A stretch of DNA of 64,000 nucleotides from Pseudomonas oryzihabitans. Lineage in GTDB: Bacteria; Pseudomonadota; Gammaproteobacteria; Pseudomonadales; Pseudomonadaceae. A program made the translations under genes and the position numbers. The DNA lies in contig NZ_CP013987.1 in the NCBI RefSeq assembly GCF_001518815.1, positions 2,564,501 through 2,628,500 of the forward strand, read 5' to 3'. Shown here one piece after another: positions 588-18,530 of this stretch; the stretch's first letter is position 1; every line of letters starts with the position of its first letter. The notes under the pieces were generated by a model. The model was not told where the DNA came from and did not search any database. It saw nothing but the letters and a program-made list of their open reading frames with translations.

Positions 588-696
588 GGGTCGAGGCTGG
601 TGGCTACCCGCTTCGCTCGAATGTTCTTGGGCGAACGCGGGTCGAAACAGGCGCAATCCAAGATCAGGCACGGGCCAGCGGCCCCAGGGAGACCAG

Positions 697-921
697 ATGC
701 AGAACTACCACATCGTACCTACCGACACCGGCTGGGAATTCAAAGAGGAACATGGCGATCGTGCCCTGCTCAAGGCGTCGACCAAGGACGCCATCGTCCA
801 CCAGGCGGCGCAATACCTGGATGGCAAGACCGGCAGCGTCAAGATCCACACCAGCGACGGTCGTATCGAGGAAGAGCGTACCTATCCACGCAGTGCGGAT
901 CCGGCCCAGTCCAAGGGCTGA
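697..921 (+). CDS. DUF2188 family small protein
   Basis: A 74-residue protein of unknown function. It has the DUF2188 pattern: an N-terminal YHIVPTDTGWEFK strand, a central helix rich in alanine (TKDAIVHQAAQYL), then KIHTSDGRIEEERTYP. The ATG at 697 follows a purine-rich stretch and fits the domain start; reading further upstream gives a non-conserved arginine-rich extension. It stands alone between the aldehyde dehydrogenase and the NUDIX gene and is followed by a hairpin. No signal peptide or membrane segment. Confidence 0.75.
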   Translation: MQNYHIVPTDTGWEFKEEHGDRALLKASTKDAIVHQAAQYLDGKTGSVKIHTSDGRIEEERTYPRSADPAQSKG

Positions 922-926
922 CGCGT

Positions 927-959
927 CAGGACCTTGCTGCTGAGCACGGCAGGGTCCTG
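927..959 (+). terminator. Hairpin after the DUF2188 gene
   Basis: Thirteen-base-pair stem (927-939 with 947-959, two G-U pairs) and a 7-base loop, six bases after the stop codon. The T-run behind it is short (CTTTG), so it is a moderate candidate for factor-independent termination. Confidence 0.55.
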
Positions 960-996
960 CTTTGACCGCATCCCCCTCGCCTACCATTCGTAGTGG

Positions 997-1006
997 TGGT
1001 ATACCG
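997..1006. promoter_or_regulatory. GGTATACC operator, site a (NUDIX gene)
   Basis: TGGTATACCG, with the full GGTATACC core at 998-1005, lies 41 bases before the NUDIX start codon. It differs by one flanking base from the TGGTATACCA found at 4890 and 10783. Inferred to bind the GntR regulator encoded at 9662-10417. Confidence 0.6.
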
Positions 1007-1046
1007 TAAGACCATAACAATCAGAATGGCGGTCAGCGAGGTCAGC

Positions 1047-1613
1047 ATGAATTCATCTCCGCGTTTCTGCTGCCAGTGCGGCAGTGCCGAACTCCTTCGT
1101 AGGCGGCCAGCAGGAGATAGCCACGAGCGGCTGCTGTGCGGCGCCTGCGGTCATGTGCTCTACGACAATCCGCGAGTGATCGCAGGCTGCCTGGTGGAGC
1201 ACGAGGGACGCTACCTGCTCTGCCGCCGGGCCATCGAGCCACGCCGGGGCTACTGGACACTACCAGCAGGCTTCATGGAGAACGACGAGAGCGCCGAGCA
1301 GGCCGCGCTGCGGGAGACCTGGGAGGAAAGCGGGGTCAGGGCCCGGATCCTCGCGCCCTACTCCATCTTCAATGCGGCGGGCGTCAATCAGGTCTACCTG
1401 ATCTTCCGCGCCGAATTGGTCGAAATCGACGCCGAGGCTGGCATTGAAACCCTGGAGCGCCGCTTTTTCGCACCGGACGAGTTGCCCTGGGCCGACCTGG
1501 CCTATCCCTCGATTCGCCAGATCCTCGAACGCCGGCTTCAAGAACAGGTACAGGGCCATCATGGTCTCTATTTCGGTACCGCCGAAGCCGGACAGTTGCA
1601 TACCCTTGGCTGA
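1047..1613 (+). CDS. NUDIX hydrolase with N-terminal zinc ribbon
   Basis: A 188-residue NUDIX pyrophosphohydrolase, cytoplasmic. Two CxxC pairs (C8/C11 and C31/C34) form a zinc ribbon like that of the NudC/NADH-pyrophosphatase group. The NUDIX box is complete: G75, E81, R89-E90, E93-E94 and G96, giving Gx5Ex7REUxEExGU. Likely substrates are dinucleotide cofactors such as NADH, FAD or ADP-ribose; which one cannot be read from sequence. I chose ATG 1047 because GAGG lies just upstream; the ATG at 1026 is also possible, while the GTG at 993 would overlap the operator. The operator at 997-1006 suggests membership in the GGTATACC regulon, so the enzyme may serve cofactor turnover there. Confidence 0.85.
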   Translation: MNSSPRFCCQCGSAELLRRRPAGDSHERLLCGACGHVLYDNPRVIAGCLVEHEGRYLLCRRAIEPRRGYWTLPAGFMENDESAEQAALRETWEESGVRARILAPYSIFNAAGVNQVYLIFRAELVEIDAEAGIETLERRFFAPDELPWADLAYPSIRQILERRLQEQVQGHHGLYFGTAEAGQLHTLG

Positions 1614-1627
1614 CTTGAGCGGGCCCC

Positions 1628-1704
1628 GTTGGGCTTCGACGATGGAGCCGTTTCAGCCCAACCTACGGTAAAGGTAGGTTGGGCTGAGCATAGCGAAGCC
1701 CAAC
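1628..1704. repeat. Inverted-repeat element, copy 1
   Basis: Outer arms GTTGGGCTTCG and CGAAGCCCAAC, inner arms CAGCCCAACCTAC and GTAGGTTGGGCTG, so it can fold as one long hairpin. It lies between the convergent NUDIX and gabD genes, where it may end transcription from both sides. Related copies are at 1727-1805 and 33556-33629. Confidence 0.85.
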
Positions 1705-1726
1705 ACATCCAGACTCGGTGCCTCCC

Positions 1727-1805
1727 GTTGGCCTTCGACGATGGAGCCGTTTCAGCCCAACCTACGTATCTAGCGTAGGTTGGGCTGAGCGTAGCGAAGC
1801 CCAAC
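1727..1805. repeat. Inverted-repeat element, copy 2
   Basis: Nearly the same sequence as copy 1, in the same orientation, 22 bases further on, with GTTGGCCTTCG as one outer arm and a different inner loop (GTATCTAGC). It ends 8 bases from the gabD stop codon. The tandem arrangement suggests local duplication or repeated insertion. Confidence 0.85.
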
Positions 1806-1813
1806 GAACGGGA

Positions 1814-3259
1814 TCAGACGCCCAGGCAGAGGTACTTGATCTCGAGGTATTCCTCGATGCCGTACTTGGAGCCCTCGCGGCCCAGGCCCGAAGCCTTGAC
1901 GCCACCAAAGGGCGCGACTTCGTTGGAGATCAGGCCGGTGTTGATGCCGACCATGCCGTACTCCAGCGCCTCGGCCACACGGAATACGCGGGACAGGTCG
2001 CGGGCATAGAAGTAGGAGGCCAGACCAAATTCGGTGTCGTTGGCCAGCTCGATGACCTCGGCCTCGTCCTTGAAGCGGAACAGCGGCGCCAGCGGGCCGA
2101 AGGTCTCTTCCTTGGACACCTTGGCGCTCTTGGGCACGTCGGCGAGGATGGTCGGCTCGAAATAGCTGCCCCCGTTGGCGTGGGCCTTGCCACCGGCGAT
2201 GACCTTGGCGCCTTGGCTCACGGCGTCGTCGATGTGCTCCTTGACCTTGGCCGCGGCCTTGGCGTCGATCAGCGGGCCGATGGTGACGCCCTCCTCCAGG
2301 CCGTTGCCGACCTTGAGCTTGGCCACCGCGGCCTTGAATTTCTCGGCGAAGGCGTCGTACACGCCGTCCTGGATATAGAGGCGGTTGACGCAGACACAGG
2401 TCTGGCCGGCGTTGCGGTACTTGGAGGCGATGGCGCCTTCCACGGCCTTGTCCAGATCGGCGTCGTCGAAGACGATGAAGGGCGCATTGCCGCCCAGCTC
2501 CAGCGACAGCTTCTTGATGGTGGGGGCGCTCTGCTCCATCAGCTTGGCACCGATCTCGGTGGAGCCGGTAAAGGAAATCTTGCGCACGATGGGACTTTCG
2601 GTCAGCTCGGCGCCGATCTCGGCGGCGGAGCCGGTGACCACGCTCAGCACACCCTTGGGAATGCCGGCGCGCTCGGCCAGCTCGACCAGGGCCAGGGCCG
2701 AGTACGGGGTCTGGCTGGCGGGCTTGATGACCATGGTGCAGCCCGCGGCCAGGGCCGGGCCGGCCTTGCGGGTGATCATCGCGGTGGGGAAATTCCACGG
2801 CGTGATGGCGGCGGTGACGCCGATGGGCTGCTTGATCACCAGGATGCGCTTGTCGGCCTGGTGGCCGGGAATGGTGTCGCCATAGATGCGCTTGGCTTCT
2901 TCGGCGAACCACTCGATGAAGGAGGCGGCGTAGACGATCTCGCCCTTGGCCTCGGCCAGTGGCTTGCCCTGCTCCAGGGTCATCAGCCGGCCCAGGTCAT
3001 CCTGGTTCTCGATCATCAGCTCGTACCAGCGCCGCAGCTTGGCCGAACGCTCCTTGGCGGTCAGCGCACGCCAGGCCGGCAGGGCGCGGTTGGCGGCGTC
3101 GATGGCACGTTTGGTCTCGGCGCGGCCGAGCTTGGGAATGGTGCCCAAGGTCTCGCCGGTGGCCGGGTTGTCCACGGTGACGGTGGCACCGCTGTCGGCG
3201 TCGATCCAGGCGCCGTCGACATAGGCTTGCTGGCGAAACAGGGAAGCGTCTTGCAACAT
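1814..3259 (-). CDS. gabD: Succinate-semialdehyde dehydrogenase (GabD / TgnE type)
   Basis: Oxidises succinate semialdehyde to succinate with NAD(P)+, cytoplasmic. It has 481 residues, the normal GabD length. Visible motifs are TPWNFP, the FTGSTEIG turn of the cofactor site, the glutamate in LELGGNAPF and the catalytic cysteine in NAGQTCVCVNR. It lies 52 bases behind the NCS1 permease gene on the same strand, so the two probably form one transcription unit controlled from the operator at 4790. In this setting it would take the succinate semialdehyde produced by the neighbouring ring-cleavage pathway (the role of TgnE in trigonelline degradation); an ordinary GABA role is the alternative. Confidence 0.9.
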   Translation of the reverse strand: MLQDASLFRQQAYVDGAWIDADSGATVTVDNPATGETLGTIPKLGRAETKRAIDAANRALPAWRALTAKERSAKLRRWYELMIENQDDLGRLMTLEQGKPLAEAKGEIVYAASFIEWFAEEAKRIYGDTIPGHQADKRILVIKQPIGVTAAITPWNFPTAMITRKAGPALAAGCTMVIKPASQTPYSALALVELAERAGIPKGVLSVVTGSAAEIGAELTESPIVRKISFTGSTEIGAKLMEQSAPTIKKLSLELGGNAPFIVFDDADLDKAVEGAIASKYRNAGQTCVCVNRLYIQDGVYDAFAEKFKAAVAKLKVGNGLEEGVTIGPLIDAKAAAKVKEHIDDAVSQGAKVIAGGKAHANGGSYFEPTILADVPKSAKVSKEETFGPLAPLFRFKDEAEVIELANDTEFGLASYFYARDLSRVFRVAEALEYGMVGINTGLISNEVAPFGGVKASGLGREGSKYGIEEYLEIKYLCLGV

Positions 3260-3311
3260 GGTCTGGATTCCTAGCTAGAGAGTTGAAGGCGATTACGAAG
3301 GGCTGCTGCGG

Positions 3312-4718
3312 TCATTGCGGGGAAGCCGCCTGCAGACGCGCTACCTGGGCCGGTGAGCCCTGATAGGCCAGCCAGAAATACAGCGGGCAGGTCACCAGCA
3401 GACCGAACAGCCAGGAGAGGTCGGCGCCTGCCACCAGGTCGGCATAGGGCCCCTTGAACAGCGCCGTGTTGGCGAACGGCAGCTGCACCAGGATGCCGAC
3501 CGCGTAGGCGGCGATGGCATGGCCGTTGAAGCGACCGTAGCGGCCACCGTCGGCGGCGAACAATGAAGGGATGTGGTAGTCGCCGCGCTTGATCAGATAG
3601 AAGTCGATGAGATTGATGGAAGCCCAGGGCACCAGGATCATGGTCATGGCCAGTACCAGGCCGATGAATCTTTCGATGAAATCGGCCGAGGCCATGAGCG
3701 CCACGCTGCAGCAGCCCACCAGCACCAGGCTGGACAGCACCACCTTGACCTTGACGCCCGGTGTCCAGCTGGCGGCGAAGGTCTGCACGCAGGTGATGAT
3801 GGCAAGTACCGCGCCATAGAGGTTGAGGGCGTTGTGGCTGATGATGTTGAGCAGGAACAGCACCATCAGCACCGGGCCCAGCCAGCCGGTGGCCTGGGCC
3901 ACGGCGGCCATGGCGTCGTTACCGGCCGGCACCGCCAGCACCGCCACCACACCAAAGGAAAAGGCCAGGATGGTGCCCAGGGTGGCGCCCAGGTAGGTCG
4001 CCCAGAAGGGTCGTGCGATCCCCACCGCTTCCGGGAGATAGCGCGAATAGTCGCTGGTGTAGGGCGAGAAACTCAGTTGCCAGATCACCCCCAGCGACAG
4101 CGTAGCGACGAAACCGCTGGCATTGAGACCGCCCCGGGTCAGGAAGTCCGCGGGCAGCGGCTGGCTCAGCATCATGGCGAAACCCGCCAGCAACCCCGCG
4201 CCCATGACCCAGGTACCCCAGCGATTGAGGGTATGGATGCAGCGATAACCGATCACCCCGATGGCCGTGGCGCTCAGGGCGCCGACCACGATGGCCAGCG
4301 GCATGGGTACGGCCGGCACCAAGCCTTGGATCGACTTGCCGGCCAGCACCACGTTGGAGGTGAAAAAGCCCACGTAGATCAGCGCGGTGACGCAGACGAT
4401 CAGCAGGGCGCCATAGCGGCCGAACTGGCCACGACTTTGCACCATCTGCGGAATGCCCAGCCGCGGGCCCTGGGCCGAGGCCAGGGCCAGCACCACCCCG
4501 CCGAGCAGATGCCCGAACACGATGGCCACCAGGCCCCAGGCCAGATTCAGGTGGAAGGTCTGGACCACCATGGCGCCGGTGACGATGGGCAACGGCGCGA
4601 TATTGGTGCTGAACCAGAGGGTGAAGAGATCGCGGCTATGGCCGTGGCGTTCGGCCGAGGCGACGTGATCCACGGTATGGGTTTCGATGGCGACGGCGGA
4701 GCGAGGGGCTGCGGACAT
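3312..4718 (-). CDS. NCS1 family (purine-cytosine permease-like) transporter
   Basis: A 468-residue inner-membrane protein with about twelve hydrophobic segments, of the NCS1 family that imports nucleobases, hydantoins, allantoin and related N-heterocycles by cation symport. The N-terminal part has the family feature of an aromatic and proline-rich first segment (LFTLWFSTNIAPLPIVTG). The start at 4718 is chosen because the upstream in-frame extension would run through the operator region and encodes no conserved sequence. It is divergent from the monooxygenase operon and co-directional with gabD. Uptake of the pyridine compound degraded by the neighbouring genes is inferred. Confidence 0.85.
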   Translation of the reverse strand: MSAAPRSAVAIETHTVDHVASAERHGHSRDLFTLWFSTNIAPLPIVTGAMVVQTFHLNLAWGLVAIVFGHLLGGVVLALASAQGPRLGIPQMVQSRGQFGRYGALLIVCVTALIYVGFFTSNVVLAGKSIQGLVPAVPMPLAIVVGALSATAIGVIGYRCIHTLNRWGTWVMGAGLLAGFAMMLSQPLPADFLTRGGLNASGFVATLSLGVIWQLSFSPYTSDYSRYLPEAVGIARPFWATYLGATLGTILAFSFGVVAVLAVPAGNDAMAAVAQATGWLGPVLMVLFLLNIISHNALNLYGAVLAIITCVQTFAASWTPGVKVKVVLSSLVLVGCCSVALMASADFIERFIGLVLAMTMILVPWASINLIDFYLIKRGDYHIPSLFAADGGRYGRFNGHAIAAYAVGILVQLPFANTALFKGPYADLVAGADLSWLFGLLVTCPLYFWLAYQGSPAQVARLQAASPQ

Positions 4719-4789
4719 CCAGGAATTCCATTGTTGTAGTTGTGGAAGACGCCTGCTGGACAGGTCGTCCTGGTAAGCGGAAAGTATTA

Positions 4790-4799
4790 CGGTATACCA
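4790..4799. promoter_or_regulatory. GGTATACC operator, site b (NCS1-gabD side)
   Basis: CGGTATACCA with a perfect GGTATACC core at 4791-4798, 72 bases upstream of the permease start. The 16 bases from 4791 (GGTATACCAGATTACA) recur exactly at 10785-10800 in front of ribB, which argues for a conserved site rather than chance. Confidence 0.7.
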
Positions 4800-4889
4800 G
4801 ATTACACAACCGCCTTTTACCGGGTGGGTTTGCCATCTGAGCACCGTCGCCAGATCTCGTTACATCTCCGCTTGCCAGCTAACGTATTA

Positions 4890-4899
4890 TGGTATACCA
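4890..4899. promoter_or_regulatory. GGTATACC operator, site c (monooxygenase operon side)
   Basis: Perfect palindrome TGGTATACCA in an AT-rich stretch 90 bases before the monooxygenase start and 100 bases from site b, in the divergent promoter region. TTGCCA at 4872-4877 could be a -35 element, which would put this operator over the -10 region, as expected for a repressor site. Confidence 0.72.
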
Positions 4900-4989
4900 A
4901 TAAAAACATCGACTGGCTGAGCCGTCGCGTACCGCCAACAAGAGACACCCGAGCCCCGCGCCGAGGTGGAAGACAAGAGGTAGGCTTCT

Positions 4990-6027
4990 ATGAAATTTTC
5001 CCTGTTCGTGCACATGGAACGCTGGGACGAAAGCGTCAGCCATCGGCAGCTGTTCGAAGAGCTGACCGAGCTGACCCTGATGGCCGAAGCCGGTGGGTTC
5101 TGCACCGTCTGGGTCGGTGAGCATCATGCGATGGAATACACCATTTCCCCCAGCCCCATGCCGATCCTGGCCAACCTCGCAGCTCGCACCTCGACCATCC
5201 GCCTGGGCGCCGGCACCTTGATCGCGCCTTTCTGGCATCCCCTGCGTGCAGCCGGTGAATGCGCCCTGCTGGACGTGATCAGCGAAGGCCGCATGGAAGT
5301 GGGCCTGGCCCGCGGCGCCTACCAGGTGGAGTTCGATCGCATGGCCGGCGGCCTGCCCGCGACGGCCGGCGGCAAGCACCTGCGCGAACTGGTACCGGCG
5401 CTGCGCAAGCTGTGGGAGGGCGACTATGCCCACGACGGCGAAGTCTGGCAGTTCCCCACCTCCACCAGCGTGCCCAAGCCGGTCGGCACCCCGCCGATCT
5501 GGATCGCCGCGCGGGATCCGGATTCGCACAATTTCGCCGTGGCCAATGGCTGCAACGTCATGGTCACGCCGCTGATGAAGGGCGATGAGGAAGTGGTCGA
5601 CCTCAAGCACAAATTCGACAACGCCCTGGCCAACAATCCCGGCGTCGCCCGGCCCAAGCTGATGGTGCTGCGCCACACCCATGTGCACGCCGCCGAGGAG
5701 CCCGAAGGCTGGAAGATCGGCGCCCAGGCCATCGGCCGCTTCTACCGCACCTTCGATGCCTGGTTCGGCAACAAGGAAACCCCGGTCAACGGCTTCCTCG
5801 CCCCGAGTCCGGAAGAGAAGTTCGCCGGCCGCCCGGAATTCGAGCTGGAGAATATCCGCAAGAACACCATGATCGGCACGCCGGAAGAGGTGATCGCCCG
5901 CCTGCGCCACTACGAGGAACTGGGCGTCGACGAGTTCAGCTTCTGGTGCGACAACAGCCTGCCTTTCGCCGAGAAGAAGAAGTCGCTGCAACTGTTCATC
6001 GACAAGGTGGCGCCCGCCTTCGCCTGA
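4990..6027 (+). CDS. tgnB: LLM-class flavin-dependent monooxygenase, oxygenase component (TgnB-like)
   Basis: A 345-residue bacterial-luciferase-fold enzyme that uses reduced FMN from a separate reductase to oxygenate its substrate. The family pattern is clear: MKFSLFVHMERW start, WVGEHH near residue 40, RLGAGTLIAPFWHPLR, the EGRMEVGLARGAY loop, and FxFWCDN close to the C-terminus. A good ribosome site (AGAGG) precedes the ATG. It opens an operon ending with a flavin reductase, with an aldehyde dehydrogenase and an alpha/beta hydrolase between. That set equals trigonelline monooxygenase TgnB/TgnA with TgnC and TgnD, which cleaves the pyridine ring of N-methylnicotinate. A different N-heterocycle is possible. 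Confidence 0.75.
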   Translation: MKFSLFVHMERWDESVSHRQLFEELTELTLMAEAGGFCTVWVGEHHAMEYTISPSPMPILANLAARTSTIRLGAGTLIAPFWHPLRAAGECALLDVISEGRMEVGLARGAYQVEFDRMAGGLPATAGGKHLRELVPALRKLWEGDYAHDGEVWQFPTSTSVPKPVGTPPIWIAARDPDSHNFAVANGCNVMVTPLMKGDEEVVDLKHKFDNALANNPGVARPKLMVLRHTHVHAAEEPEGWKIGAQAIGRFYRTFDAWFGNKETPVNGFLAPSPEEKFAGRPEFELENIRKNTMIGTPEEVIARLRHYEELGVDEFSFWCDNSLPFAEKKKSLQLFIDKVAPAFA

Positions 6028-6072
6028 TCCCCGGGTTGCGTAGTGACGCAGCCCTCAACACGCTCAAGTGCG

Positions 6073-6082
6073 TGGCATACCA
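6073..6082. promoter_or_regulatory. GGTATACC-like operator, site d (before AA_synth gene)
   Basis: TGGCATACCA, one mismatch from the consensus, in the 83-base gap between the monooxygenase gene and the AA_synth gene. It could mark an internal promoter; being imperfect and inside an operon it is less certain than sites b, c and e. Confidence 0.45.
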
Positions 6083-6110
6083 TCATCCAACAGACATCCC
6101 AGGAGTCAGC

Positions 6111-6701
6111 ATGAGTTTTGAAATCCGCAAGGTCGTCACCTATCTCGAAGAAACCCATATCGAAGGGGGCAAGGCCACCGACAAGCCGGTGACCATGGCC
6201 GGCGTCGCCGTGGTGATCCGCAACCCCTGGGCCGGCCAGGGCTTCGTCGAAGACCTCAAGCCCGAGATCAAGGCCCACTGCTCCGACCTGGGCGCCTTCA
6301 TCGTCGAGCGCCTGACCCGCGCCATCGGCGGCGCCGAACGCATCGAGGCCTATGGCAAGGCGGCCGTGGTCGGCGCCGACGGCGAGATCGAACACGCCTC
6401 GGCGGTGATCCATACCCTGCGATTCGGTAACCACTACCGCGAGGCGGTCCAGGCCAAGAGCTACCTGAGCTTCACCAACAAGCGCGGCGCACCGGGTACT
6501 TCCATCCAGATCCCCATGATGCACAAGGATGACGAGGGCCTGAGATCCCACTACATCACCCTGGAAATGCGCATCGAGGATGCCCCGCGGGCCGACGAGA
6601 TCGTGGTGGTGCTGGGCGCTGCCGATGGTGGCCGCCTGCATCCGCGCATCGGCAACCGCTACATCGACCTCGAGGAACTCGCGGCTGAAAAGGCGCGCTG
6701 A
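6111..6701 (+). CDS. AA_synth (DUF1185, PF06684) family protein
   Basis: A 196-residue protein of the family called amino acid synthesis, whose solved members have a chorismate-mutase-like trimeric fold; no reaction is established. Visible features are MSFEIRKVVTYLEETHIEGG at the start, AVVIRNPWAG, AYGKAAVVGADGEIEHASA and the ending IGNRYIDLEEL. The ribosome site AGGAG precedes the ATG. It lies between the monooxygenase and the alpha/beta hydrolase, so it probably handles an unstable ring-opening intermediate, much as RutC does in the pyrimidine (Rut) pathway; that is inference. No signal peptide. Confidence 0.8.
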   Translation: MSFEIRKVVTYLEETHIEGGKATDKPVTMAGVAVVIRNPWAGQGFVEDLKPEIKAHCSDLGAFIVERLTRAIGGAERIEAYGKAAVVGADGEIEHASAVIHTLRFGNHYREAVQAKSYLSFTNKRGAPGTSIQIPMMHKDDEGLRSHYITLEMRIEDAPRADEIVVVLGAADGGRLHPRIGNRYIDLEELAAEKAR

Positions 6702-6714
6702 GGAGAACCCGCGA

Positions 6715-7554
6715 ATGATCCGGTCTACAGACGCCAAGACCCCCGCCGGCACCGCCTACCGCATCGCCGGCGATGGCAGCCCCCTCGTCCTGATCCACGG
6801 GGTGGGGCTCAGCAAGGACATGTGGGGCGGTCAACTCGCGGGGCTCGCACCACGCTACCAGGTGATCGCCTATGACATGCTCGGCCATGGCGAGAGCCAG
6901 CGCCCGGCGGCGCAGGCGACGCTCGACGACTATGCCGCGCAGCTCACCGAACTGCTCGATCACCTGGCGCTGGAAACGGCCGTGGTGGTCGGCTTCTCCA
7001 TGGGCGGCCTGATCGCCCGGGCCTTCGCCCTGAGCTATCCGCAGCGGCTGGACGCGCTGGTGATCCTCAACAGCGTGTTCAATCGCTCGGTGGAGCAACG
7101 CAGCGGAGTTCTGGAGCGGAGCCGCCAGGCCGAACTCGAAGGCCCCGACGCCAATCTCGATAGCGCCCTGGCCCGCTGGTTCAGCCGCGAGTATCAAGGC
7201 GCCAACCCGGCGCAGATCCAGGCGCTGCGTCAAGCCTTCGCCAACAACGACCCCCAGGGCTATCTGACCACCTACACCCTGTTCGCCACCCAGGACCGCT
7301 ACGGTGCCGAGCGGCTGGACAGCCTCCAGGTACCCACCCTGGTGGCTACTGGCGAGCTGGACAGCGGCTCGACCCCGGAGATGGCGCGCCAGCTGGCCGC
7401 ACGGATTCCGCGCGCGCGCACTGCCGTGCTGGCCGACCAGCGCCATATGATGCCGGTCGAGTCACCCAAGCTGGTCAACGCCCTGCTGCTGGACTTCCTC
7501 GACGACGTCCTGGCCAAGGCCCCTTCCACTTCCATCAAGGGATACGTGGCATGA
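6715..7554 (+). CDS. tgnD: Alpha/beta-fold hydrolase (TgnD-like)
   Basis: A 279-residue cytoplasmic serine hydrolase. The oxyanion-hole motif LIHGVGLSKDMW, the nucleophile elbow GFSMGG, the acid segment VATGELDSG and the late histidine in DQRHMMPVE make up a full catalytic set. It starts 13 bases after the AA_synth stop and its own stop overlaps the next ATG (ATGA). In the trigonelline pathway TgnD hydrolyses (E)-2-((N-methylformamido)methylene)succinate to succinate semialdehyde, methylamine, formate and carbon dioxide. The operon position fits, but the substrate is not proven by sequence. Confidence 0.72.
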   Translation: MIRSTDAKTPAGTAYRIAGDGSPLVLIHGVGLSKDMWGGQLAGLAPRYQVIAYDMLGHGESQRPAAQATLDDYAAQLTELLDHLALETAVVVGFSMGGLIARAFALSYPQRLDALVILNSVFNRSVEQRSGVLERSRQAELEGPDANLDSALARWFSREYQGANPAQIQALRQAFANNDPQGYLTTYTLFATQDRYGAERLDSLQVPTLVATGELDSGSTPEMARQLAARIPRARTAVLADQRHMMPVESPKLVNALLLDFLDDVLAKAPSTSIKGYVA

Positions 7555-9032
7555 CCCTGCAACGTTTTCAGATGTGCATCGACGGCGAATGGACCGCAGC
7601 CCAGTCCGGCCGTACCTTCGCCAGTCTCGATCCGGCCACTGCGACCGCCTGGGCGGAATTGCCCGACGCCGATGCCGACGACGTCGACCGCGCCGTCCAG
7701 GCCGCCCAGCGAGCCTTCGAGGCGCCGGCCTGGCGTGGCCTGACCGCCAGCGCCCGCGGCAAGCTCTTGCGCCGGCTGGGCGATCTCATCGCCGCCAATA
7801 AGGAGGCCCTGGCCCAGCTGGAAAGCCGCGACAACGGCAAGCTGATCCGCGAGACCCGCGGCCAGGTCGGCTACCTGCCGGAATTCTTCCACTACACGGC
7901 GGGCCTCGCCGACAAGATCGAAGGCGGCACCCTGCCCCTCGACAAGACCGACCTCTTCGCCTACACGGTGCATGAACCCCTGGGCGTGATCGCCGGCATC
8001 GTGCCCTGGAACAGCCCGCTGTACCTGACCGCCATCAAGGTCGCCCCGGCCCTGGCTGCTGGCAACACCGTGGTGATCAAGCCGTCCGAGCACGCCTCGG
8101 CCACCATCCTGGAGCTGGCGCGACTGGCCCTCGAAGCCGGCATTCCTCCCGGCGTGTTCAACGTGGTGACCGGCTATGGTCCGGGCGCCGGCGCGGCCCT
8201 CACCCGCCATCCGCTGGTGCGCAAGATCGCCTTTACCGGTGGCGCCGCCACGGCCCGCCACGTGGTCCGCGCCAGTGCCGAGAACTTCGCCAAGCTGAGC
8301 CTGGAGCTGGGCGGCAAGTCGCCCAACATCATCTTCGCCGACGCCGACCTCGATAGCGCGATCAACGGCGCGGTGGCCGGTATCTATGCCGCCTCCGGGC
8401 AGAGTTGCGTGGCCGGCTCGCGGCTGCTGGTGCAGGACGAGATCTACGACGAATTCGTGACCCGGCTGGTGGAGCGCGCCCAGCGCATCCGCATCGGCAA
8501 TCCCCAGGACGATGCCAGCGAGATGGGCCCGATGGCCACCGAGCAGCAGCTCGCCATCGTCGAGCAGCTGGTAGAAGCGGCCCTGGCCGAAGGCGCGACT
8601 CTACGCCTGGGCGGCAAGCGACCCGACACCGGCAGCGCCGGCTGGTACTACGAACCCACCCTGCTGGAATGCGACCGCCACTCGCTGCGCATCATGCAGG
8701 AGGAAGTCTTCGGCCCGGTGGCCGCGGTGATCCGCTTCAAGGACGAGGCCGAGGCCCTGCGCCTGGCCAACGACAGCGAGCTGGGCCTCGCCGCGGGCAT
8801 CTGGACCCGCGACCTGGGCCGTGCCCATCGCCTGGCGCGGGACATCCGCTCCGGCATCATCTGGGTCAACACCTATCGCGCGGTCTCGGCCATGGCGCCG
8901 ATCGGCGGTTTCAAGAACAGCGGCTACGGCCGCGAGAGTGGCATCGACTCGGTTCTGGCCTATACCGAAACCAAAACGGTATGGATCAATCTGTCCCAGG
9001 CGCCGATGCCCGATCCCTTTGTAATGCGTTAA
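7551..9032 (+). CDS. tgnC: Aldehyde dehydrogenase (TgnC-like)
   Basis: A 493-residue NAD(P)+-dependent aldehyde dehydrogenase. It has VPWNSPL, the FTGGAATARH cofactor turn, the general base in LELGGKSPN and the catalytic cysteine in SGQSCVAGSR, then EEVFGPVAAV. It overlaps the hydrolase gene by 4 bases, indicating translational coupling. In the trigonelline pathway TgnC oxidises the ring-opened aldehyde, which cyclises as a hydroxybutyrolactone, to the methylene succinate that TgnD then hydrolyses. It is clearly different from gabD (1814-3259) and the aldA fragment at the window start, which points to a distinct substrate. Confidence 0.75.
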   Translation: MTLQRFQMCIDGEWTAAQSGRTFASLDPATATAWAELPDADADDVDRAVQAAQRAFEAPAWRGLTASARGKLLRRLGDLIAANKEALAQLESRDNGKLIRETRGQVGYLPEFFHYTAGLADKIEGGTLPLDKTDLFAYTVHEPLGVIAGIVPWNSPLYLTAIKVAPALAAGNTVVIKPSEHASATILELARLALEAGIPPGVFNVVTGYGPGAGAALTRHPLVRKIAFTGGAATARHVVRASAENFAKLSLELGGKSPNIIFADADLDSAINGAVAGIYAASGQSCVAGSRLLVQDEIYDEFVTRLVERAQRIRIGNPQDDASEMGPMATEQQLAIVEQLVEAALAEGATLRLGGKRPDTGSAGWYYEPTLLECDRHSLRIMQEEVFGPVAAVIRFKDEAEALRLANDSELGLAAGIWTRDLGRAHRLARDIRSGIIWVNTYRAVSAMAPIGGFKNSGYGRESGIDSVLAYTETKTVWINLSQAPMPDPFVMR

Positions 9033-9047
9033 ACGAGGTTGGCAGTC

Positions 9048-9533
9048 ATGATCGATCCCGCAATCTACAAGCAAGTGATGGGCGCCTTTCCGTCCGGCGT
9101 CACCGTGGTCACCACCCTGGATGCCGAAGGCAACCTCGCCGGCCTGACCGCCAGTGCCTTCAGCGCCCTGTCGCTGGATCCGGCGCTGGTGCTCTTCTGT
9201 CCCAACTACAGCTCCGACACCTACCCCCTGCTGCGTGACGGCAAGGGTTTCGCCATCCACCTGCTGAGCGCCGAACAGCAGCGTATCGCCTATGCCTTCG
9301 CCAGCAAGGGCAAGGACAAGACCCAGGGCATCGAATGGACGCGCAGCGCCCTGGGCAATCCGCTGCTGGCCGATGCCACGGCGGTGATCGAGTGCGAGCT
9401 GTGGCGCGAGTACGACGGGGGCGACCACGCCATCATCGTCGGGGCGGTGAAGAATCTGATCGTGCCGGACCAGGAGGTGATCCCGATGCTCTATCACCGG
9501 GGCCGCATGGGCGCCGCACCGATCTATGCCTGA
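9048..9533 (+). CDS. tgnA: Flavin reductase, reductase component (TgnA-like)
   Basis: A 161-residue NAD(P)H:flavin oxidoreductase of the HpaC/RutF type, which feeds reduced FMN to a separate oxygenase. Visible pattern: FPSGVTVVTTLDAEGNLAGLTASAFSA near the N-terminus and a late HAIIVGAV strand before the YHRGRM segment. ATG 9048 is chosen over an in-frame TTG at 9039 because GAGG lies about nine bases before it. It ends the operon begun by the LLM monooxygenase, the two forming a two-component system. Confidence 0.82.
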   Translation: MIDPAIYKQVMGAFPSGVTVVTTLDAEGNLAGLTASAFSALSLDPALVLFCPNYSSDTYPLLRDGKGFAIHLLSAEQQRIAYAFASKGKDKTQGIEWTRSALGNPLLADATAVIECELWREYDGGDHAIIVGAVKNLIVPDQEVIPMLYHRGRMGAAPIYA

Positions 9534-9661
9534 GCGGACGGGCCCATGAACGCCTGCAGGGGGCATGCTAGACTTGCTCTCTTCCGCCCTGGCGAGCACG
9601 CAGGCCCCACGTAGTCGCGTGCCTCGTCGTCGCCTGTAGAACCGGTCCGCCAGAGAGCCCC

Positions 9662-10417
9662 ATGAGACGCGCGCAACTAGACGACAGCTTCAAGATCACC
9701 CGCAGCCCGGTCACCCTGCGTGAAATGGTGTGCAATCGCCTGCGCCAGGCGATCCTGAACTTCCAGTTGCTGCCGGGCGACCGCCTGGTGGAGCGCGATC
9801 TCTGCGACCGCCTGGGTGTGAGCCGCACCTCGGTGCGCGAAGCCCTGCGTCATCTCGAATCCGAAGGCCTGGTGGAATTCGCCGATGCCCGTGGGCCGCG
9901 CGTCGCCATCATCACCCTGGAGGATGCCTGCGACCTCTATGAGCTGCGCTGCGTGCTGGAAGGCCTGATCGTGCAACTCTTCACCTTGCGCGCCGGCCCC
10001 CGTGAAATCGAGGCGCTGGAACAGGCCCTCGAGGAGAACCGCAAGGCCCTGGAGGGCGCCGAACTGCCAGAGGTCATCGAGACCGTGCAGAATTTCTATA
10101 ACGTGCTCATGGAGGGCTGCGGCAATCGCGTCGCCGCCACCCAGCTGCGCCAGCTGCAGGCGCGGGTGAGCTACCTGAGGGCCACCTCGGTGTCCCAGGC
10201 CAATCGCCGTCAGGCGAGCAACGCGGAGATGGAGCGCATGGTCGCCGCCATCCGCAGTGGCGATGCCCTGGCCGCCCACCAGGCGTCGGTCGATCACGTC
10301 CGTGCCGCCGCCCAGGTCGCCCTCGACTACCTGCAGCGGCAACAGGAGCACCAGGGCGAACAGGCCCGTGAGCTGTTCATTCCCCGCGTCCAGGACGAGC
10401 CGCGCATCGAGCGCTAG
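9662..10417 (+). CDS. GntR family regulator with FCD ligand-binding domain
   Basis: A 251-residue DNA-binding regulator. Residues about 20-75 form the GntR winged helix (LPGDRLVERDLCDRLGVSRT, then SVREALRHLESEGLVE), and about 95-225 form the all-helical FCD domain with the late HQASVDHV segment that usually helps bind metal or ligand. It follows the monooxygenase operon by 128 bases on the same strand. The GGTATACC palindromes around it fit the described FadR-subfamily operator type (GT then AC half sites), so it is the best candidate for their regulator, equivalent to TgnR. Whether it represses or activates cannot be read; repression is usual. Confidence 0.85.
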   Translation: MRRAQLDDSFKITRSPVTLREMVCNRLRQAILNFQLLPGDRLVERDLCDRLGVSRTSVREALRHLESEGLVEFADARGPRVAIITLEDACDLYELRCVLEGLIVQLFTLRAGPREIEALEQALEENRKALEGAELPEVIETVQNFYNVLMEGCGNRVAATQLRQLQARVSYLRATSVSQANRRQASNAEMERMVAAIRSGDALAAHQASVDHVRAAAQVALDYLQRQQEHQGEQARELFIPRVQDEPRIER

Positions 10418-10461
10418 CCGTCTTCGGCCAGACGCGGCAGTGCCGTGCCTGGCCGCCTGTC

Positions 10462-10749
10462 TCATAGTCCTTCGACGATGAAGATCTCGGCCCGCGCCGC
10501 CGTCTGCCGGTGCCCGCAGGCGTCCTGATACTCCGCCGAGCGATAGCAGGCCAGGGCCTGTTCGTAGGAATCGAACTCGATCACGACCCGGCGCGTCGCC
10601 CAGCCCTCTCCCTCCAGCTGCTCAGCGCGTCCGCCCCGCGCGAGGAAGCGTCCGCCATAGCGGGCGAAGGCCGCAGGGGCGCGCTCCGTATAGCCGCGAT
10701 AAGCCTCGGGATCGGTCACATCGACCTCTGCAATCCAATAACCTTTCAT
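10462..10749 (-). CDS. DUF1330 family protein
   Basis: A 95-residue protein with the DUF1330 (dimeric alpha-beta barrel) pattern: [18 protein letters not shown] at the start, [11 protein letters not shown] in the middle and [20 protein letters not shown] later. No function is established for the family. Its gene is divergent from the ribB-type gene and shares with it the operator at 10783-10792, which lies 34 bases upstream of its start. That links it to the heterocycle regulon; a role with a small reactive intermediate is possible but unsupported beyond context. Confidence 0.82.
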
Positions 10750-10782
10750 GGCGCTTTGCCTCTTTCGCTACGTTTTGTCTCA

Positions 10783-10792
10783 TGGTATACCA
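10783..10792. promoter_or_regulatory. GGTATACC operator, site e (DUF1330 / ribB)
   Basis: Perfect palindrome TGGTATACCA in the 78-base divergent gap, 36 bases before the ribB GTG. The 16 bases from 10785 are identical to those from 4791 in front of the NCS1 permease. Confidence 0.72.
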
Positions 10793-10827
10793 GATTACAG
10801 AACAATCCAGAACCCTGAGAGGTAGCC

Positions 10828-11937
10828 GTGGCCATCCATCCCATCGAAGCGATCATCGAGGATTTCCGTGCCGGCAAGATGGTCATCCTGGTCGATGACG
10901 AAGACCGCGAGAACGAAGGTGACATCCTGCTCGCCGCCGATGCCTGCACCCCTGCCGCGATCAGCTTCATGGCCCGCGAAGCCCGCGGCCTGATCTGCCT
11001 GACGCTGACCGAGGAACGCTGCCGCCAGCTCAACCTGATGCAGATGGTCAGTGACAACGGCACCGTCCACGGCACCGCCTTCACCGTGTCCATCGAAGCC
11101 GCTACCGGCGTCACTACCGGCATCTCGGCCGCCGACCGGGCGCGCACCATCGAAGCCGCGGTGGCACCGGATGCCACCGCGCGGGACCTGGTCCAGCCCG
11201 GCCACATCTTTCCGCTACGTGCCCGCGACGGCGGCGTGCTGACCCGTGCCGGCCATACCGAGGCCGGTTGCGACCTGGCGCGCCTGGCCGGTCGCAACCC
11301 TTCCGCCGTCATCGTCGAGGTGATGAACGACGACGGCAGCATGGCCCGGCGTCCGGATCTGGAGCGTTTCGGCGAACGCCACGGCATCAAGCTGGGCACC
11401 ATCGCCGACCTCATCCACTACCGACTGCGCCACGAACACACCGTCATTCGCATCGGCGAGAGCGAATTGCCCACCGTGCACGGCACCTTCCGCCTGCTGA
11501 CCTACGAGGACCGCATCGAAGGCGGTGTACACCTGGCCATGGTGATGGGCGACATCGACCGCGAGACGCCTACCCTGGTTCGCGTCCATGCCCTGGATCC
11601 CCTGCGCGACCTGGTCGGTGCCGAATACAGCGGGCCGCCGAGCTGGACCCTGTGGGCTGCCCTGGAACGCGTCGCCCGGGAAGGCCACGGCATCGTGGTG
11701 GTGCTGGCCAACCACGAATCTTCCCAGGCGCTGCTGGCCCGGGTGCCCTCGCTGACCCAGCCCAAGCGGCTGTTCGAACGCTCCCAGTCGCGCATCTATG
11801 CCGAGGTAGGCACCGGTGCGCAGATCCTGCAGGACCTGGGCGTCGGGCGCATCCGTCACCTGGGTCTGCCCCTGCGCTACGCCGGCCTGACCGGGTACGA
11901 ACTGGAGATCGTCGAAACCCTGCCTTTTCCTGGCTGA
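10828..11937 (+). CDS. ribBA: 3,4-dihydroxy-2-butanone 4-phosphate synthase with degenerate GTP cyclohydrolase II domain
   Basis: A 369-residue flavin biosynthesis protein. Residues 1 to about 205 are the DHBP synthase domain with the acidic loop [10 protein letters not shown] (23-32) and GHTEAGCDL; this makes the four-carbon unit of riboflavin from ribulose 5-phosphate. Residues about 210-369 resemble GTP cyclohydrolase II, but the zinc-binding cysteines of its SECLTGDVFGSxRCDC segment are replaced ([18 protein letters not shown]), so that activity is probably lost, as in many Pseudomonas RibBA proteins. The start is GTG with GAGAGG upstream. The leader is too short for an FMN riboswitch. 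The operator instead ties it to the flavin monooxygenase operon, suggesting substrate-induced flavin supply. Confidence 0.85.
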
Positions 11938-11943
11938 AGCCCT

Positions 11944-11961
11944 TTCCAGAGGCCTCTGGAA
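11944..11961. other. 18-base perfect palindrome after ribBA
   Basis: TTCCAGAGGCCTCTGGAA is self-complementary and lies 6 bases after the ribBA stop. It could fold as a 7-bp stem with a GGCC loop, but no T-run follows. It may be a terminator, or a second operator for the ABC transporter genes. Confidence 0.5.
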
Positions 11962-11976
11962 GGCTTGCAAAAAGTT

Positions 11977-11986
11977 TGGAATACCA
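11977..11986. promoter_or_regulatory. GGTATACC-like operator, site f (ABC transporter)
   Basis: TGGAATACCA, one mismatch from TGGTATACCA, set in AT-rich sequence 141 bases before the solute-binding protein gene. It places the transporter in the same putative regulon. Confidence 0.55.
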
Positions 11987-12127
11987 TAATATCGAATGAC
12001 AAAACGGCCCATTCGACAGGGTCGACAGCTCTACTTCGAGGTGCCGCTATCCGCCTCGAATCGCACGACTCCTACAAGGCCGCGACACCTCTGCCGCGCC
12101 GATCCAATAACAAAAGAGGGCGTCACG

Positions 12128-13150
12128 ATGTTGCTGAAGCTTAAAGTCGTCTCTGTGGTCGCTGCCGGCCTGTTGACTACGCTGGCCCTTCCGGCCCAGG
12201 CGGAAAGTCTCAACTTCACCAGCTGGGGCGGTACCACCCAGGACGCCCAGAAGCAGGCCTGGGCCGAACCCTTCACCCAGCAGACCGGCATCCAGGTAGT
12301 GCAGGACGGCCCCACCGACTACGGCAAGCTCCAGGCCATGGTGCAGAGCGGCAACGTCCAGTGGGACGTGGTCGACGTGGAAGCCGATTTCGCCCTGCGC
12401 GCCGCCCAGCAGGGCCTGCTCGAACCCCTGGATTTCAAGACCATCGATCGCAACAAGATCGACCCGCGCTTCGTCAATGACCATGCGGTGGGCTCCTTCT
12501 TCTTCTCCTTCGTGCTCGGCTACAACCAGGGCAAGCTCGGCAGCAAGCAGCCGCAGGACTGGTCGGCGCTGTTCGATACCACCACCTACCCCGGCAAGCG
12601 CGCGCTCTACAAATGGCCGAGCCCCGGCGTTTTGGAGCTGGCCCTGCTGGCCGACGGCGTGCCCAAGGACAAGCTCTATCCCCTGGATCTGGATCGGGCC
12701 TTCAAGAAGCTCGACACCATCAAGAAGAACATCGTCTGGTGGGGCGGCGGTGCCCAGTCCCAGCAGTTGCTCGCCTCCGGCGAAGCGACCCTGGGACAAT
12801 TCTGGAACGGTCGCGTCCATGCCCTGCAGCAGGACGGCGCGCCAGTAGGCGTGAGCTGGAAGCAGAACCTGGTCATGGCCGACATGCTAGTGGTGCCCAA
12901 GGGCGCCAAGAACAAGGACGCCGCGATGAAATTCCTCGCCGAGGCCAGCAGCCCTCGCGGCCAGGCGGATTTTGCCAATCTCACCGCCTATGCGCCGGTC
13001 AACGTCGACAGCATCGCCAAGCTGACCCCGGACCTGGCCAAGAATCTGCCCACCGCCTATGGCAGTGAGCAGGTCACCCTGGACTTCGCCTACTGGGCCC
13101 AGCACGGTGGCGAGATCGCCAGCCGCTGGAACGAATGGCTGGTGAAATGA
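12128..13150 (+). CDS. ABC transporter substrate-binding protein, polyamine-type
   Basis: A 340-residue periplasmic binding protein of the PotD-like class. Residues 1-25 are a Sec signal peptide (LKLK start, hydrophobic core, cleavage expected after PAQA). The mature part opens with LNFTSWGGTTQDAQ and has VQWDVVDVEADFALRAAQQG and SGEATLGQFWNGR, typical of the fold. ATG 12128 is chosen because the longer in-frame reading has no signal and passes close to the operator. First gene of a four-gene transporter operon. The ligand is not readable; polyamine-type systems also take up betaines and other amines, so trigonelline is a reasonable candidate from context. Confidence 0.85.
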   Translation: MLLKLKVVSVVAAGLLTTLALPAQAESLNFTSWGGTTQDAQKQAWAEPFTQQTGIQVVQDGPTDYGKLQAMVQSGNVQWDVVDVEADFALRAAQQGLLEPLDFKTIDRNKIDPRFVNDHAVGSFFFSFVLGYNQGKLGSKQPQDWSALFDTTTYPGKRALYKWPSPGVLELALLADGVPKDKLYPLDLDRAFKKLDTIKKNIVWWGGGAQSQQLLASGEATLGQFWNGRVHALQQDGAPVGVSWKQNLVMADMLVVPKGAKNKDAAMKFLAEASSPRGQADFANLTAYAPVNVDSIAKLTPDLAKNLPTAYGSEQVTLDFAYWAQHGGEIASRWNEWLVK

Positions 13151-13151
13151 C

Positions 13152-14075
13152 ATGTCTGCCTCCAGCTCCAGCCGGGCGGTGCTCGGCACTGCCAAGGACC
13201 GCCGTGCGCTGAACGATCCGGCGCGGACCCGGGGTGAACGCGCCGTCCGCTGGAAGGGCGCGAGTCACCTCGTCCCTGCCCTGCTGTTCCTCGGCCTGTT
13301 CTTCCTGGTCCCGTTGATCGGCCTGCTGCTGCGCGGCGTCCTCGAACCCACGCCGGGCCTGGGCAACTACCAGACCCTGTTCGCCAATGGGGCCTATGCC
13401 CAGGTGCTGCTCAACACCTTTGGCGTCGCTGCCCTGGTGACCCTGTTCAGCGTGCTGATCGGCTTTCCGCTGGCCTGGACCATCACCCTGATGCCCCGCG
13501 GCTGGGGCCGGGTGCTGTTCAACATCGTGCTGCTGTCGATGTGGACCAGCCTGCTGGCCCGTACCTACGCCTGGCTGGTGCTCTTGCAGGGCTCGGGGGT
13601 GATCAACAAGTTGCTCATGGCGATGGGTCTGATCGACGAACCCCTGGCGCTGGTCAATAACCTCACCGGGGTGGTGATCGGCATGACCTACATCATGATT
13701 CCCTTCATCGTGCTGCCGCTGCAGGCGACGCTACAGGCCATGGACCCCATGGTGCTGCAGGCCGGCGCCATCTGCGGCGCCAGCCCCTGGACCAATTTCC
13801 GCAAGGTGTTCCTGCCCATGTGCCGCTCGGGCCTGGGCTCTGGCGCGCTTATGGTATTCGTCATGTCGCTCGGCTACTACGTTACCCCGGCGCTGCTGGG
13901 CGGAGCGCAGAACATGATGCTGCCGGAGTTCATCATCCAGCAGGTGCAGTCCTTCCTCAACTGGGGCCTGGCCAGCGCCGCCGCGGCCTTGCTGATCGTC
14001 ATCGCCCTGGTGCTGTTCGCCCTCTATCTCAGGTTGCAACCGGAATCCCCGGTCGACCCCCAGAACGCGAGGTAA
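13152..14075 (+). CDS. ABC transporter permease, PotB-like
   Basis: A 307-residue inner-membrane permease with about six hydrophobic segments after a 35-residue charged N-terminus. The cytoplasmic EAA loop reads AGAICGASPWTNFRKVFLP, where the ATPase docks. It starts two bases after the binding-protein stop and is followed at 4 bases by the second permease. The two permeases form the heterodimeric channel of this importer. Confidence 0.88.
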   Translation: MSASSSSRAVLGTAKDRRALNDPARTRGERAVRWKGASHLVPALLFLGLFFLVPLIGLLLRGVLEPTPGLGNYQTLFANGAYAQVLLNTFGVAALVTLFSVLIGFPLAWTITLMPRGWGRVLFNIVLLSMWTSLLARTYAWLVLLQGSGVINKLLMAMGLIDEPLALVNNLTGVVIGMTYIMIPFIVLPLQATLQAMDPMVLQAGAICGASPWTNFRKVFLPMCRSGLGSGALMVFVMSLGYYVTPALLGGAQNMMLPEFIIQQVQSFLNWGLASAAAALLIVIALVLFALYLRLQPESPVDPQNAR

Positions 14076-14079
14076 CCCC

Positions 14080-14889
14080 ATGCTGCTGACTCCCAGTGCC
14101 CTCGGCTGGCGGCTGCGCGGTGGCCTGCTGCTGATCACCGGCGCCATCGCCGCGGTGCTCCTGCTGCCCATCGTCTTCATCGTGCTGCTGTCGTTCGGCT
14201 CGTCCCAATGGCTGGTCTTTCCGCCGCCCGGCTGGACGCTCAAGTGGTACCAGCAATTCTTCGCCAACCCGGAGTGGATGCAGGCGGCCCTGGCGAGCCT
14301 CAAGGTGGCGCTGCTGACCACCCTGGTTTCGGTAGCCCTGGCGGTGCCTTGCGCCTTCGCCCTGGTGCGCGGCAAGTTTCCCGGGCGCAAGACGCTCTAT
14401 GCGGTCTTCACCCTGCCGATGATCGTGCCACTGGTGGTGATCGCCGTGGCCATCTATGCCCTGTTCCTGCGCCTGGGCTACACCGGCACCCTACTGGCCT
14501 TCGTGGTCAGCCACGTGATCGTCGCCCTGCCCTTCGCCCTGATCGCTGTCATCAACTCGCTCAAGCTGTTCGATCAGTCCATCGAGGATGCCGCGGTGAT
14601 CTGCGGCGCCTCGCGCCTGCAGGCCATCTACCGGGTGACCCTGCCGGGGATCTGGCCGGGGGTGTTCGCCGGCGCCCTGTTCGCCTTCCTGGTGTCTTGG
14701 GACGAGGTGGTGCTGAGCGTGATGATGGCCAGCCCCAACCTGCAGACCCTGCCGGTGAAGATGTGGGCGACGCTGCGCCAGGACCTGACACCGGTGATCG
14801 CCGTGGCCTCCACGGTGCTGATCGGCCTTTCCCTGCTGGTGATGCTCGCGGCTGCCCTGCTGCGCCGCCGCCAACCCCTTTCCCGCTGA
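14080..14889 (+). CDS. ABC transporter permease, PotC-like
   Basis: A 269-residue inner-membrane permease with about six hydrophobic segments. The EAA loop is DAAVICGASRLQAIYRVTLP. The early segment contains SFGSSQWLVFPPPGWTLKWY, a feature common in PotC-type subunits. Partner of the preceding permease; the ATPase gene follows 16 bases later. Confidence 0.88.
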   Translation: MLLTPSALGWRLRGGLLLITGAIAAVLLLPIVFIVLLSFGSSQWLVFPPPGWTLKWYQQFFANPEWMQAALASLKVALLTTLVSVALAVPCAFALVRGKFPGRKTLYAVFTLPMIVPLVVIAVAIYALFLRLGYTGTLLAFVVSHVIVALPFALIAVINSLKLFDQSIEDAAVICGASRLQAIYRVTLPGIWPGVFAGALFAFLVSWDEVVLSVMMASPNLQTLPVKMWATLRQDLTPVIAVASTVLIGLSLLVMLAAALLRRRQPLSR

Positions 14890-18520: not shown

Positions 18521-18530
18521 GGAGCCCTCC

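Follow-up and report, generated by a model that had tools for sequence, protein, structure and literature searches.

A conserved palindrome as the predicted operator of a GntR/FCD regulator for trigonelline-type catabolism, uptake and flavin supply genes in Pseudomonas oryzihabitans

Why should one short palindrome stand in front of genes for a flavin monooxygenase, two transporters, a Nudix hydrolase and a second riboflavin synthesis enzyme? This question is raised by a stretch of Pseudomonas oryzihabitans DNA (assembly GCF_001518815.1, contig NZ_CP013987.1, positions 2,564,501–2,628,500 of the forward strand; the whole 64,000 nucleotides (nt) are called the window below) in a genome that forms one contig of 4,834,356 bases. 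Comparative evidence strongly supports the palindrome as the predicted operator of the GntR/FCD protein encoded at 9662..10417 (+ strand). We consider it probable that this protein acts as a repressor at a 20-bp operator and that genes for trigonelline-type ring cleavage, uptake and flavin supply would be derepressed together. Articles are cited by PMC identifier.

Six palindromic sites concentrate in one locus

With up to one mismatch, TGGTATACCA matched the window exactly six times, at 997, 4790, 4890, 6073, 10783 and 11977, compared with 0.32 matches expected by chance, and none of 100 shuffles reached six. These are the sites that a first-pass annotation of this DNA had reported, with the letters it gave and no further copy in the 64 kb. 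Its remark that they lie in AT-richer pockets also held, as the AT content is 45–52% in the 111 bp surrounding each site versus 33% in the window. Two of the sites do share the 16 identical bases it described (GGTATACCAGATTACA, beginning at 4791 and 10784), although it had put the second start at 10785.

Across the genome the exact palindrome occurs only twice, at 4890 and 10783. Allowing one mismatch gave 33 places, six of them within this 11 kb locus, and the palindrome pattern read backwards, used as a control for site counts, gave 37; the genome-wide total is not raised, and the enrichment is therefore local. A scoring matrix was trained on the loci L021–L095, which exclude the oryzihabitans group (lowest training site 18.0). 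By this matrix the perfect copies at site 3 (4890..4899, 90 bp before the monooxygenase gene) and site 5 (10783..10792, between the DUF1330 and RibBA genes) scored 33.7 and 26.9. Scores of 20.2, 29.8 and 31.2 were obtained for site 1 (TGGTATACCG, 997..1006, 40 bp before the Nudix gene), site 2 (CGGTATACCA, 4790..4799, 71 bp before the NCS1 permease gene) and site 6 (TGGAATACCA, 11977..11986, before the ABC (ATP-binding cassette) transporter genes), and site 4 (TGGCATACCA, 6073..6082, 28 bp before the PF06684 gene) is weak at 9.0. None of the other 27 genomic places exceeded 15.5, which is less than any training site scored, and 24 of them fall inside mechanically called open reading frames (ORFs) of at least 150 aa. 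A 20-position sequence model, with 150 of its 346 first-look candidates scored, returned eight strand matches at E ≤ 10 from the entire genome; these correspond to five sites, namely 1, 2, 3, 5 and 6, all in this locus. The question posed by the first-pass annotation, whether the motif is equally common elsewhere in the genome, is thus answered in the negative. The strength of the sequence-model evidence is the location of the matches and not their single E-values.

The GntR/FCD protein is the predicted binder

The protein encoded at 9662..10417 has the domain make-up of the FadR subfamily (PF00392 at residues 20–81 and PF07729 at residues 91–214). It was matched at E ≤ 1e-40 in 81 of 298 family genomes, and at least two exact sites were present in all 81 (mean 3.11), compared with 36 of the 217 genomes without it (mean 0.74), counts that shared ancestry inflates. 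The reversed control showed no such difference (mean 1.49 with GntR and 1.67 without). In the genus of the window, the seven genomes with GntR have 2–4 sites each and the six without it have 0, 0, 0, 0, 1 and 2. Furthermore, 18 of 19 chosen, site-checked loci that have the monooxygenase gene and no nearby gntR belong to genomes that carry GntR elsewhere; the sites are kept while the regulator lies elsewhere, which argues that GntR acts in trans.

The form of the sites is also that of the subfamily. FadR-subfamily operators have TKGT and ACMA boxes with 2–3 nt between GT and AC (PMC4494728), and the consensus here, TGGT-AT-ACCA, follows this rule with 2 nt. The 2-nt spacing is given for the operators of the UxuR, GntR, HpxS, HypR, MdcY and PrpR groups (PMC4494728), from which the present sites differ by their TATTA/TAATA flanks and by their target genes, among which there are no hexuronate genes. 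Arg 28, Ser 40 and Gly 59 of the helix-turn-helix domain accompany a G at the K position of the TKGT box (PMC4494728); in the numbering of Table 1 of that article, and by an alignment to FadR, positions 28 and 40 would correspond to R45 and S57 in the window GntR, and position 59 is ambiguous, as an ungapped alignment places it at A76, two residues before G78. In relatives from other genera, position 40 is V or I. The window FCD domain carries Tyr and non-His residues at positions where, we assume, other FCD proteins have metal-ligand His, and the UxuR operator presumably has the same 10-bp core. No paper on this regulator stood among the titles listed from an open-licence library, a set that does not include RegPrecise, and of the 20 titles listed among 30 papers there with the exact motif none concerned bacterial operators.

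The operator is conserved across Pseudomonas

Of 534 monooxygenase-bearing loci, 80 were kept (79 titled Pseudomonas and one 'gamma proteobacterium L18'), and 78 of these have at least one site with no more than one mismatch. From locus to locus the sites precede the same genes with similar spacing, and some loci have extra one-mismatch copies elsewhere; the consensus of 37 thinned sites is the perfect 20-bp palindrome TATTATGGTATACCATAATA. Distances from site to start codon are 28–141 bp in the window, and the medians in other Pseudomonas loci are 30–89 bp, or 167 bp for the ABC system. In the three genomes outside the oryzihabitans group whose matches at E ≤ 1 were placed on genes (G298, G299 and G301), all listed matches lie before the monooxygenase, NCS1, PF06684, DUF1330/ribBA or binding protein genes.

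Upstream sites were counted per gene (matrix score at least 15, within 250 bp; a site between divergent genes was counted for both). In the other Pseudomonas loci a site precedes ribBA (28/28), the DUF1330 gene (28/28), the PF06684 gene (10/10), the binding protein gene (29/31), the NCS1 gene (35/39), the flavin reductase gene (43/62) and the monooxygenase gene (41/75), and in many of them the site-bearing flavin reductase gene precedes that of the monooxygenase. No upstream site was found in these loci for the hydrolase (0/10), aldehyde dehydrogenase (0/10), gntR (0/24), succinate-semialdehyde dehydrogenase (0/4), Nudix (0/27), permease (0/32 each) and ATPase (0/33) genes. Within the oryzihabitans group the NCS1, monooxygenase, DUF1330, ribBA and binding protein genes each have a site in 5/5 loci, the Nudix gene in 4/5, the PF06684 gene in 2/5 and the succinate-semialdehyde dehydrogenase gene in 0/2; TGGTATACCG itself is present in all five loci, as are the identical letters of TGGCATACCA.

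The Nudix gene directly follows gntR in 30 of 30 other Pseudomonas loci where both were found. In P. oryzihabitans, where it lies apart from gntR, a site of its own precedes it, which is what a gene that had moved and had to remain in the regulon would be expected to have. The proposal in the first-pass annotation that GntR controls all these units is supported and, since the site at 6073 is weak and probably minor, is most aptly taken as a predicted regulon of five good sites, which would serve the ABC transporter, DUF1330/RibBA, the Nudix gene, the monooxygenase operon and the NCS1–succinate-semialdehyde dehydrogenase unit.

The same palindrome precedes related clusters outside Pseudomonas

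We examined 17 of 326 plasmid records that hold a relative of the monooxygenase. Thirteen of the clusters, from alpha-, beta- and gammaproteobacteria, have a related GntR (33–41% identical), and in every one of them the matrix trained only on Pseudomonas placed the palindrome ahead of the PF06684 gene. Their gntR is divergent from that gene (eight clusters), just upstream in the same direction (four) or about 11 kb away (one). All 21 hits in the 17 loci sit in gaps before cluster genes or gntR. The palindrome was found in none of the three GntR-less clusters of Shinella, Agrobacterium and R. binae (L180, L181 and L182). In these three, which have the same enzyme types as the window cluster, a 600-aa helix-turn-helix regulator takes the place of GntR.

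Some features of single records may be added. On the pSymA of Sinorhizobium meliloti ABS7 (L127:6453-7292) gntR is unannotated and apparently frameshifted near its end. The Acidiphilium plasmid pACMV1 (L184:7839-14148) has an IS110-type element at the monooxygenase gene, the match to which covers residues 121–345 only, and another transposase gene lies there between two pieces annotated as cytosine permease. The plasmid of Arthrobacter dokdonellae (L126:2342-13068) carries two 'amino acid synthesis family' genes, a tautomerase gene, a riboflavin kinase gene and a Nudix gene beside the monooxygenase gene.

The predicted target genes resemble the trigonelline pathway

The tgn trigonelline pathway of Acinetobacter baylyi ADP1 was reportedly described by Perchat et al. 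in 2018. By family-level matching, and not by comparison with the ADP1 proteins, the families of all six parts, TgnA to TgnF, occur together in the window with two transporters. A luciferase-like flavin monooxygenase (4990..6027, +; PF00296; TgnB-like) would open the ring with a flavin reductase (9048..9533, +; PF01613, an HsaB-like match staying below its cut-off; TgnA-like). Between them lie the genes of a PF06684 protein (6111..6701, +; DUF1185, 'AA_synth'; TgnF-like), an alpha/beta hydrolase (6715..7554, +) and an aldehyde dehydrogenase (7551..9032, +); family searches identified the latter two, which we take to be of the TgnD and TgnC types. These five genes and gntR all run in one direction. 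On the other strand are an NADP-dependent succinate-semialdehyde dehydrogenase gene (1814..3259, −; TgnE-like, NCBIfam equivalog NF008415 above cut-off) and that of an NCS1-family permease (3312..4718, −; PF02133), which stands beside the monooxygenase gene in many loci and likely serves substrate uptake. The second transporter is an ABC system with a PotD-like periplasmic binding protein (12128..13150, +; scanned from a longer ORF start at 11996), two permeases (13152..14075 and 14080..14889, both +) and a PotA-like ATPase (14906..16048, +). The PF06684 family is homologous to TgnF, which stimulates the TgnE-dependent oxidation of succinate semialdehyde in A. baylyi (PMC7913881), and TgnA and TgnB open the trigonelline ring (PMC8269262).

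Compared with the A. baylyi cluster, the Pseudomonas locus adds RibBA, the Nudix hydrolase and the ABC system, its genes are spread over several units, and its monooxygenase falls on an actinobacterial-type branch. A plasmid cluster of Acinetobacter junii shares the part families, the NCS1 permease, GntR and the palindrome with the window. The pSymA cluster of S. meliloti likewise has GntR, the PF06684 protein, the hydrolase, reductase, monooxygenase and aldehyde dehydrogenase, an ABC system, a succinate-semialdehyde dehydrogenase (by tblastn) and the palindrome; it differs in forming one gene run in one direction, and neither RibBA nor Nudix was found in 21 kb. Growth on trigonelline distinguishes wild-type S. 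meliloti from a strain without pSymA, which fails to grow (PMC4207669), and the pSymA cluster is a probable trigonelline catabolism cluster. Of trigonelline and homarine, R. pomeroyi grows better on the former (PMC8269262), and the structure encoded by a PF06684 gene of this species has been solved (PMC2954203). None of the three papers that a homarine search returned was, by its title, about a homarine operon.

A second RibB-type enzyme predicted to lie outside riboswitch control

Across site 5, a DUF1330 gene (10462..10749, −; PF07045) is divergent from the gene of a second RibBA-type protein (10828..11937, +), which has a 3,4-dihydroxy-2-butanone 4-phosphate (DHBP) synthase (RibB) domain and a RibA domain without the cysteine motif. 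The other genomic RibBA (4364222–4365295) is 57% identical to the window copy and lies in the housekeeping order riboflavin synthase (ribE), ribBA, lumazine synthase (ribH). This order follows the single flavin mononucleotide (FMN) riboswitch found in the genome (4366114–4366273), between ribD and the riboflavin synthase gene. NCBIfam confirmed ribD, the synthases and a separate ribA. The RibB motif is conserved in both RibBA copies; the RibA cysteine motif occurs in neither of them and is present in the separate RibA. No Rfam match was found in window positions 1–16100, so that no FMN riboswitch (RF00050) precedes the window ribBA, and none was found in the seven other ribBA-bearing loci scanned. 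The only Rfam matches in those seven loci are two TwoAYGGAY RNAs, one per strand, located downstream from a monooxygenase gene (L031:11512-12001). Since the RibB motif is kept, the RibA cysteine motif is missing and no riboswitch was found, the product of the window ribBA is expected to function as a RibB that escapes riboswitch control.

The hydrolase gene behind site 1 (1047..1613, +; PF14803 and PF00293) encodes a Nudix protein with an N-terminal zinc ribbon, an architecture present in 119 of 120 among the matches listed of 7,274 relatives. It is a candidate pyrophosphatase that would convert flavin adenine dinucleotide (FAD) to FMN, and we presume it to be similar to NUDX23. Arabidopsis NUDX23 hydrolyses FAD to FMN (PMC12840815). 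The riboflavin kinase and Nudix genes of Arthrobacter give an independent hint that such clusters may bring flavin genes along.

From these sequence features, we regard as about evenly balanced the case for a substrate-induced private flavin supply, in which the same operator would drive a riboswitch-free second RibB and an FAD-to-FMN Nudix hydrolase together with ring cleavage. If so, FMN for the two-component monooxygenase could rise even while the riboswitch keeps the housekeeping rib operon shut. In the lux-rib operon of Photobacterium a luciferase-family flavin enzyme is co-expressed with riboflavin synthesis genes; that operon serves light production, and here the setting is a catabolic regulon with a GntR operator and a single RibB-type gene. 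The proposal has a second half that shares its even chances: the operator code would have stayed unchanged across alpha-, beta- and gammaproteobacteria, and genes would have been added, moved (Nudix) or replaced (monooxygenase).

Proposed mechanism and alternative explanations

In the proposed mechanism, a GntR/FCD dimer would sit on the 20-bp operator and block transcription until trigonelline or a pathway intermediate releases it. Release would allow uptake through the NCS1 permease and the PotD-like ABC system, and a ring-opening route to succinate by the flavin reductase and monooxygenase, aldehyde dehydrogenase, hydrolase, PF06684 protein and succinate-semialdehyde dehydrogenase. In Pseudomonas it would also allow flavin supply by the RibB-type enzyme, whose gene lacks the FMN riboswitch, and by the Nudix hydrolase, possibly from FAD to FMN. 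Binding, the inducer, the substrate and the Nudix reaction are all what we infer from the comparisons above, as is repression rather than activation, which is chosen because of family habit and because the sites are close to start codons; GntR/FadR regulators of sugar acid genes are described as repressors (PMC12288454). The account would provide a concrete regulator–operator pair for the use of an N-heterocycle, probably trigonelline, a compound that accumulates in higher plants (PMC8269262), by plant-associated pseudomonads and rhizobia. It also suggests a general design, in which a catabolic route with a high demand for flavin brings along a feedback-free flavin synthesis of its own, controlled by the substrate.

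Several observations weigh against this account. Single sequence-model matches are weak (E = 0.03 to 1.64), the site at 6073 scores low, and the co-occurrence counts of GntR and sites are not phylogenetically independent. Two of the 80 loci, L050 and L074, both short contigs, have no site, and one of the 19 checked genomes, a metagenome-assembled genome, has a site-bearing monooxygenase locus and no GntR match. The palindrome is absent from the Arthrobacter cluster, which has a distant GntR (30%) and the closest monooxygenase among the plasmid hits (77%). No sigma-70-like promoter was found in window positions 900–16100, and promoter occlusion by the repressor remains a presumption. The Nudix hydrolase may be an FAD pyrophosphatase, judging by architecture and by its presumed likeness to NUDX23; the function of 3CNG, the closest relative with a solved structure, is given as undetermined (PMC5389931).

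The alternative that survives best keeps the GntR regulon and changes the substrate. The compound that is likewise opened to a formamido-aldehyde and ends in succinate semialdehyde would then be pyridine, a different N-methylpyridinium compound or an N-heterocycle related to them, which we consider possible and rather doubtful. Arthrobacter has a pyridine route with the same enzyme types, and the window monooxygenase, which is up to 99% identical in the closest named relatives, P. oryzihabitans strains, groups with actinobacterial enzymes (75–80% identical; node supports 0.83–0.84), compared with 44–55% for the other proteobacterial cluster members, about 52% for the S. meliloti enzyme and 48% for the A. 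junii plasmid relative; since it is on the actinobacterial branch and not of the S. meliloti type, its substrate might differ. Its gene appears to be a replacement that has taken on the local operator. Four of 120 listed relatives (75–79% identical) are named trigonelline monooxygenase by the Joint Genome Institute (JGI). Nevertheless, the PotD-like ABC transporter, the PF06684 protein and succinate-semialdehyde dehydrogenase are common to the S. meliloti cluster, and trigonelline is preferred over a pyridine pathway because PF06684 is TgnF, which belongs to the trigonelline work on A. baylyi, and because growth on trigonelline needs pSymA. The substrate of the window pathway is thus taken to be trigonelline.

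That a regulator other than this GntR binds the palindrome is unlikely. A paralogue could do so, as many FadR-subfamily proteins recognise boxes of the TKGT/ACMA type (PMC4494728), but such a binder would leave unexplained the link between GntR presence and sites in 81 of 81 genomes, the absence of the site where another type of regulator stands, and the related gntR near the PF06684 gene in 12 of the 13 site-bearing clusters outside Pseudomonas. It is scarcely credible that AT-rich pockets of a GC-rich genome produced the palindromes by chance, as their position in such pockets and the genome-wide one-mismatch total, no higher than the control, might suggest, given that no sequence-model match at E ≤ 10 occurs elsewhere in 4.83 Mb, that spacing to the same start codons is similar across species, and that in locally shuffled sequence the matrix had 15 hits over 6.52 Mb, versus 21 over 0.33 Mb of real loci.

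Rejected candidates and neighbouring features

A hexuronate (UxuR/ExuR) regulon was considered and rejected: there are no hexuronate genes among the targets, and the GntR protein stayed far under the cut-offs of the NCBIfam models, scoring 35.5 of 442 with that of UxuR and 22.7 of 396 with that of ExuR. The local LysR protein (16078–16986) was rejected as a binder of the palindrome because a match (37% identical) was found in only one of the 80 loci. Its gene adjoins that of an acyl-CoA dehydrogenase and one that, by reading alone, resembles the gene of an acyl-CoA carboxylase subunit (16078–20327), a group apparently outside the regulon. Between ribBA and the site at 11977, an inverted repeat seen by eye (TTCCAGAGGCCTCTGGAA, 11944–11961) is perhaps a terminator; it is not among the computed terminator-like sites. 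In addition, positions 1620–1810 contain two near-identical intergenic copies with inverted AGCCCAACCTACG and CGTAGGTTGGGCT arms, also noted by eye, which resemble a repeat element.

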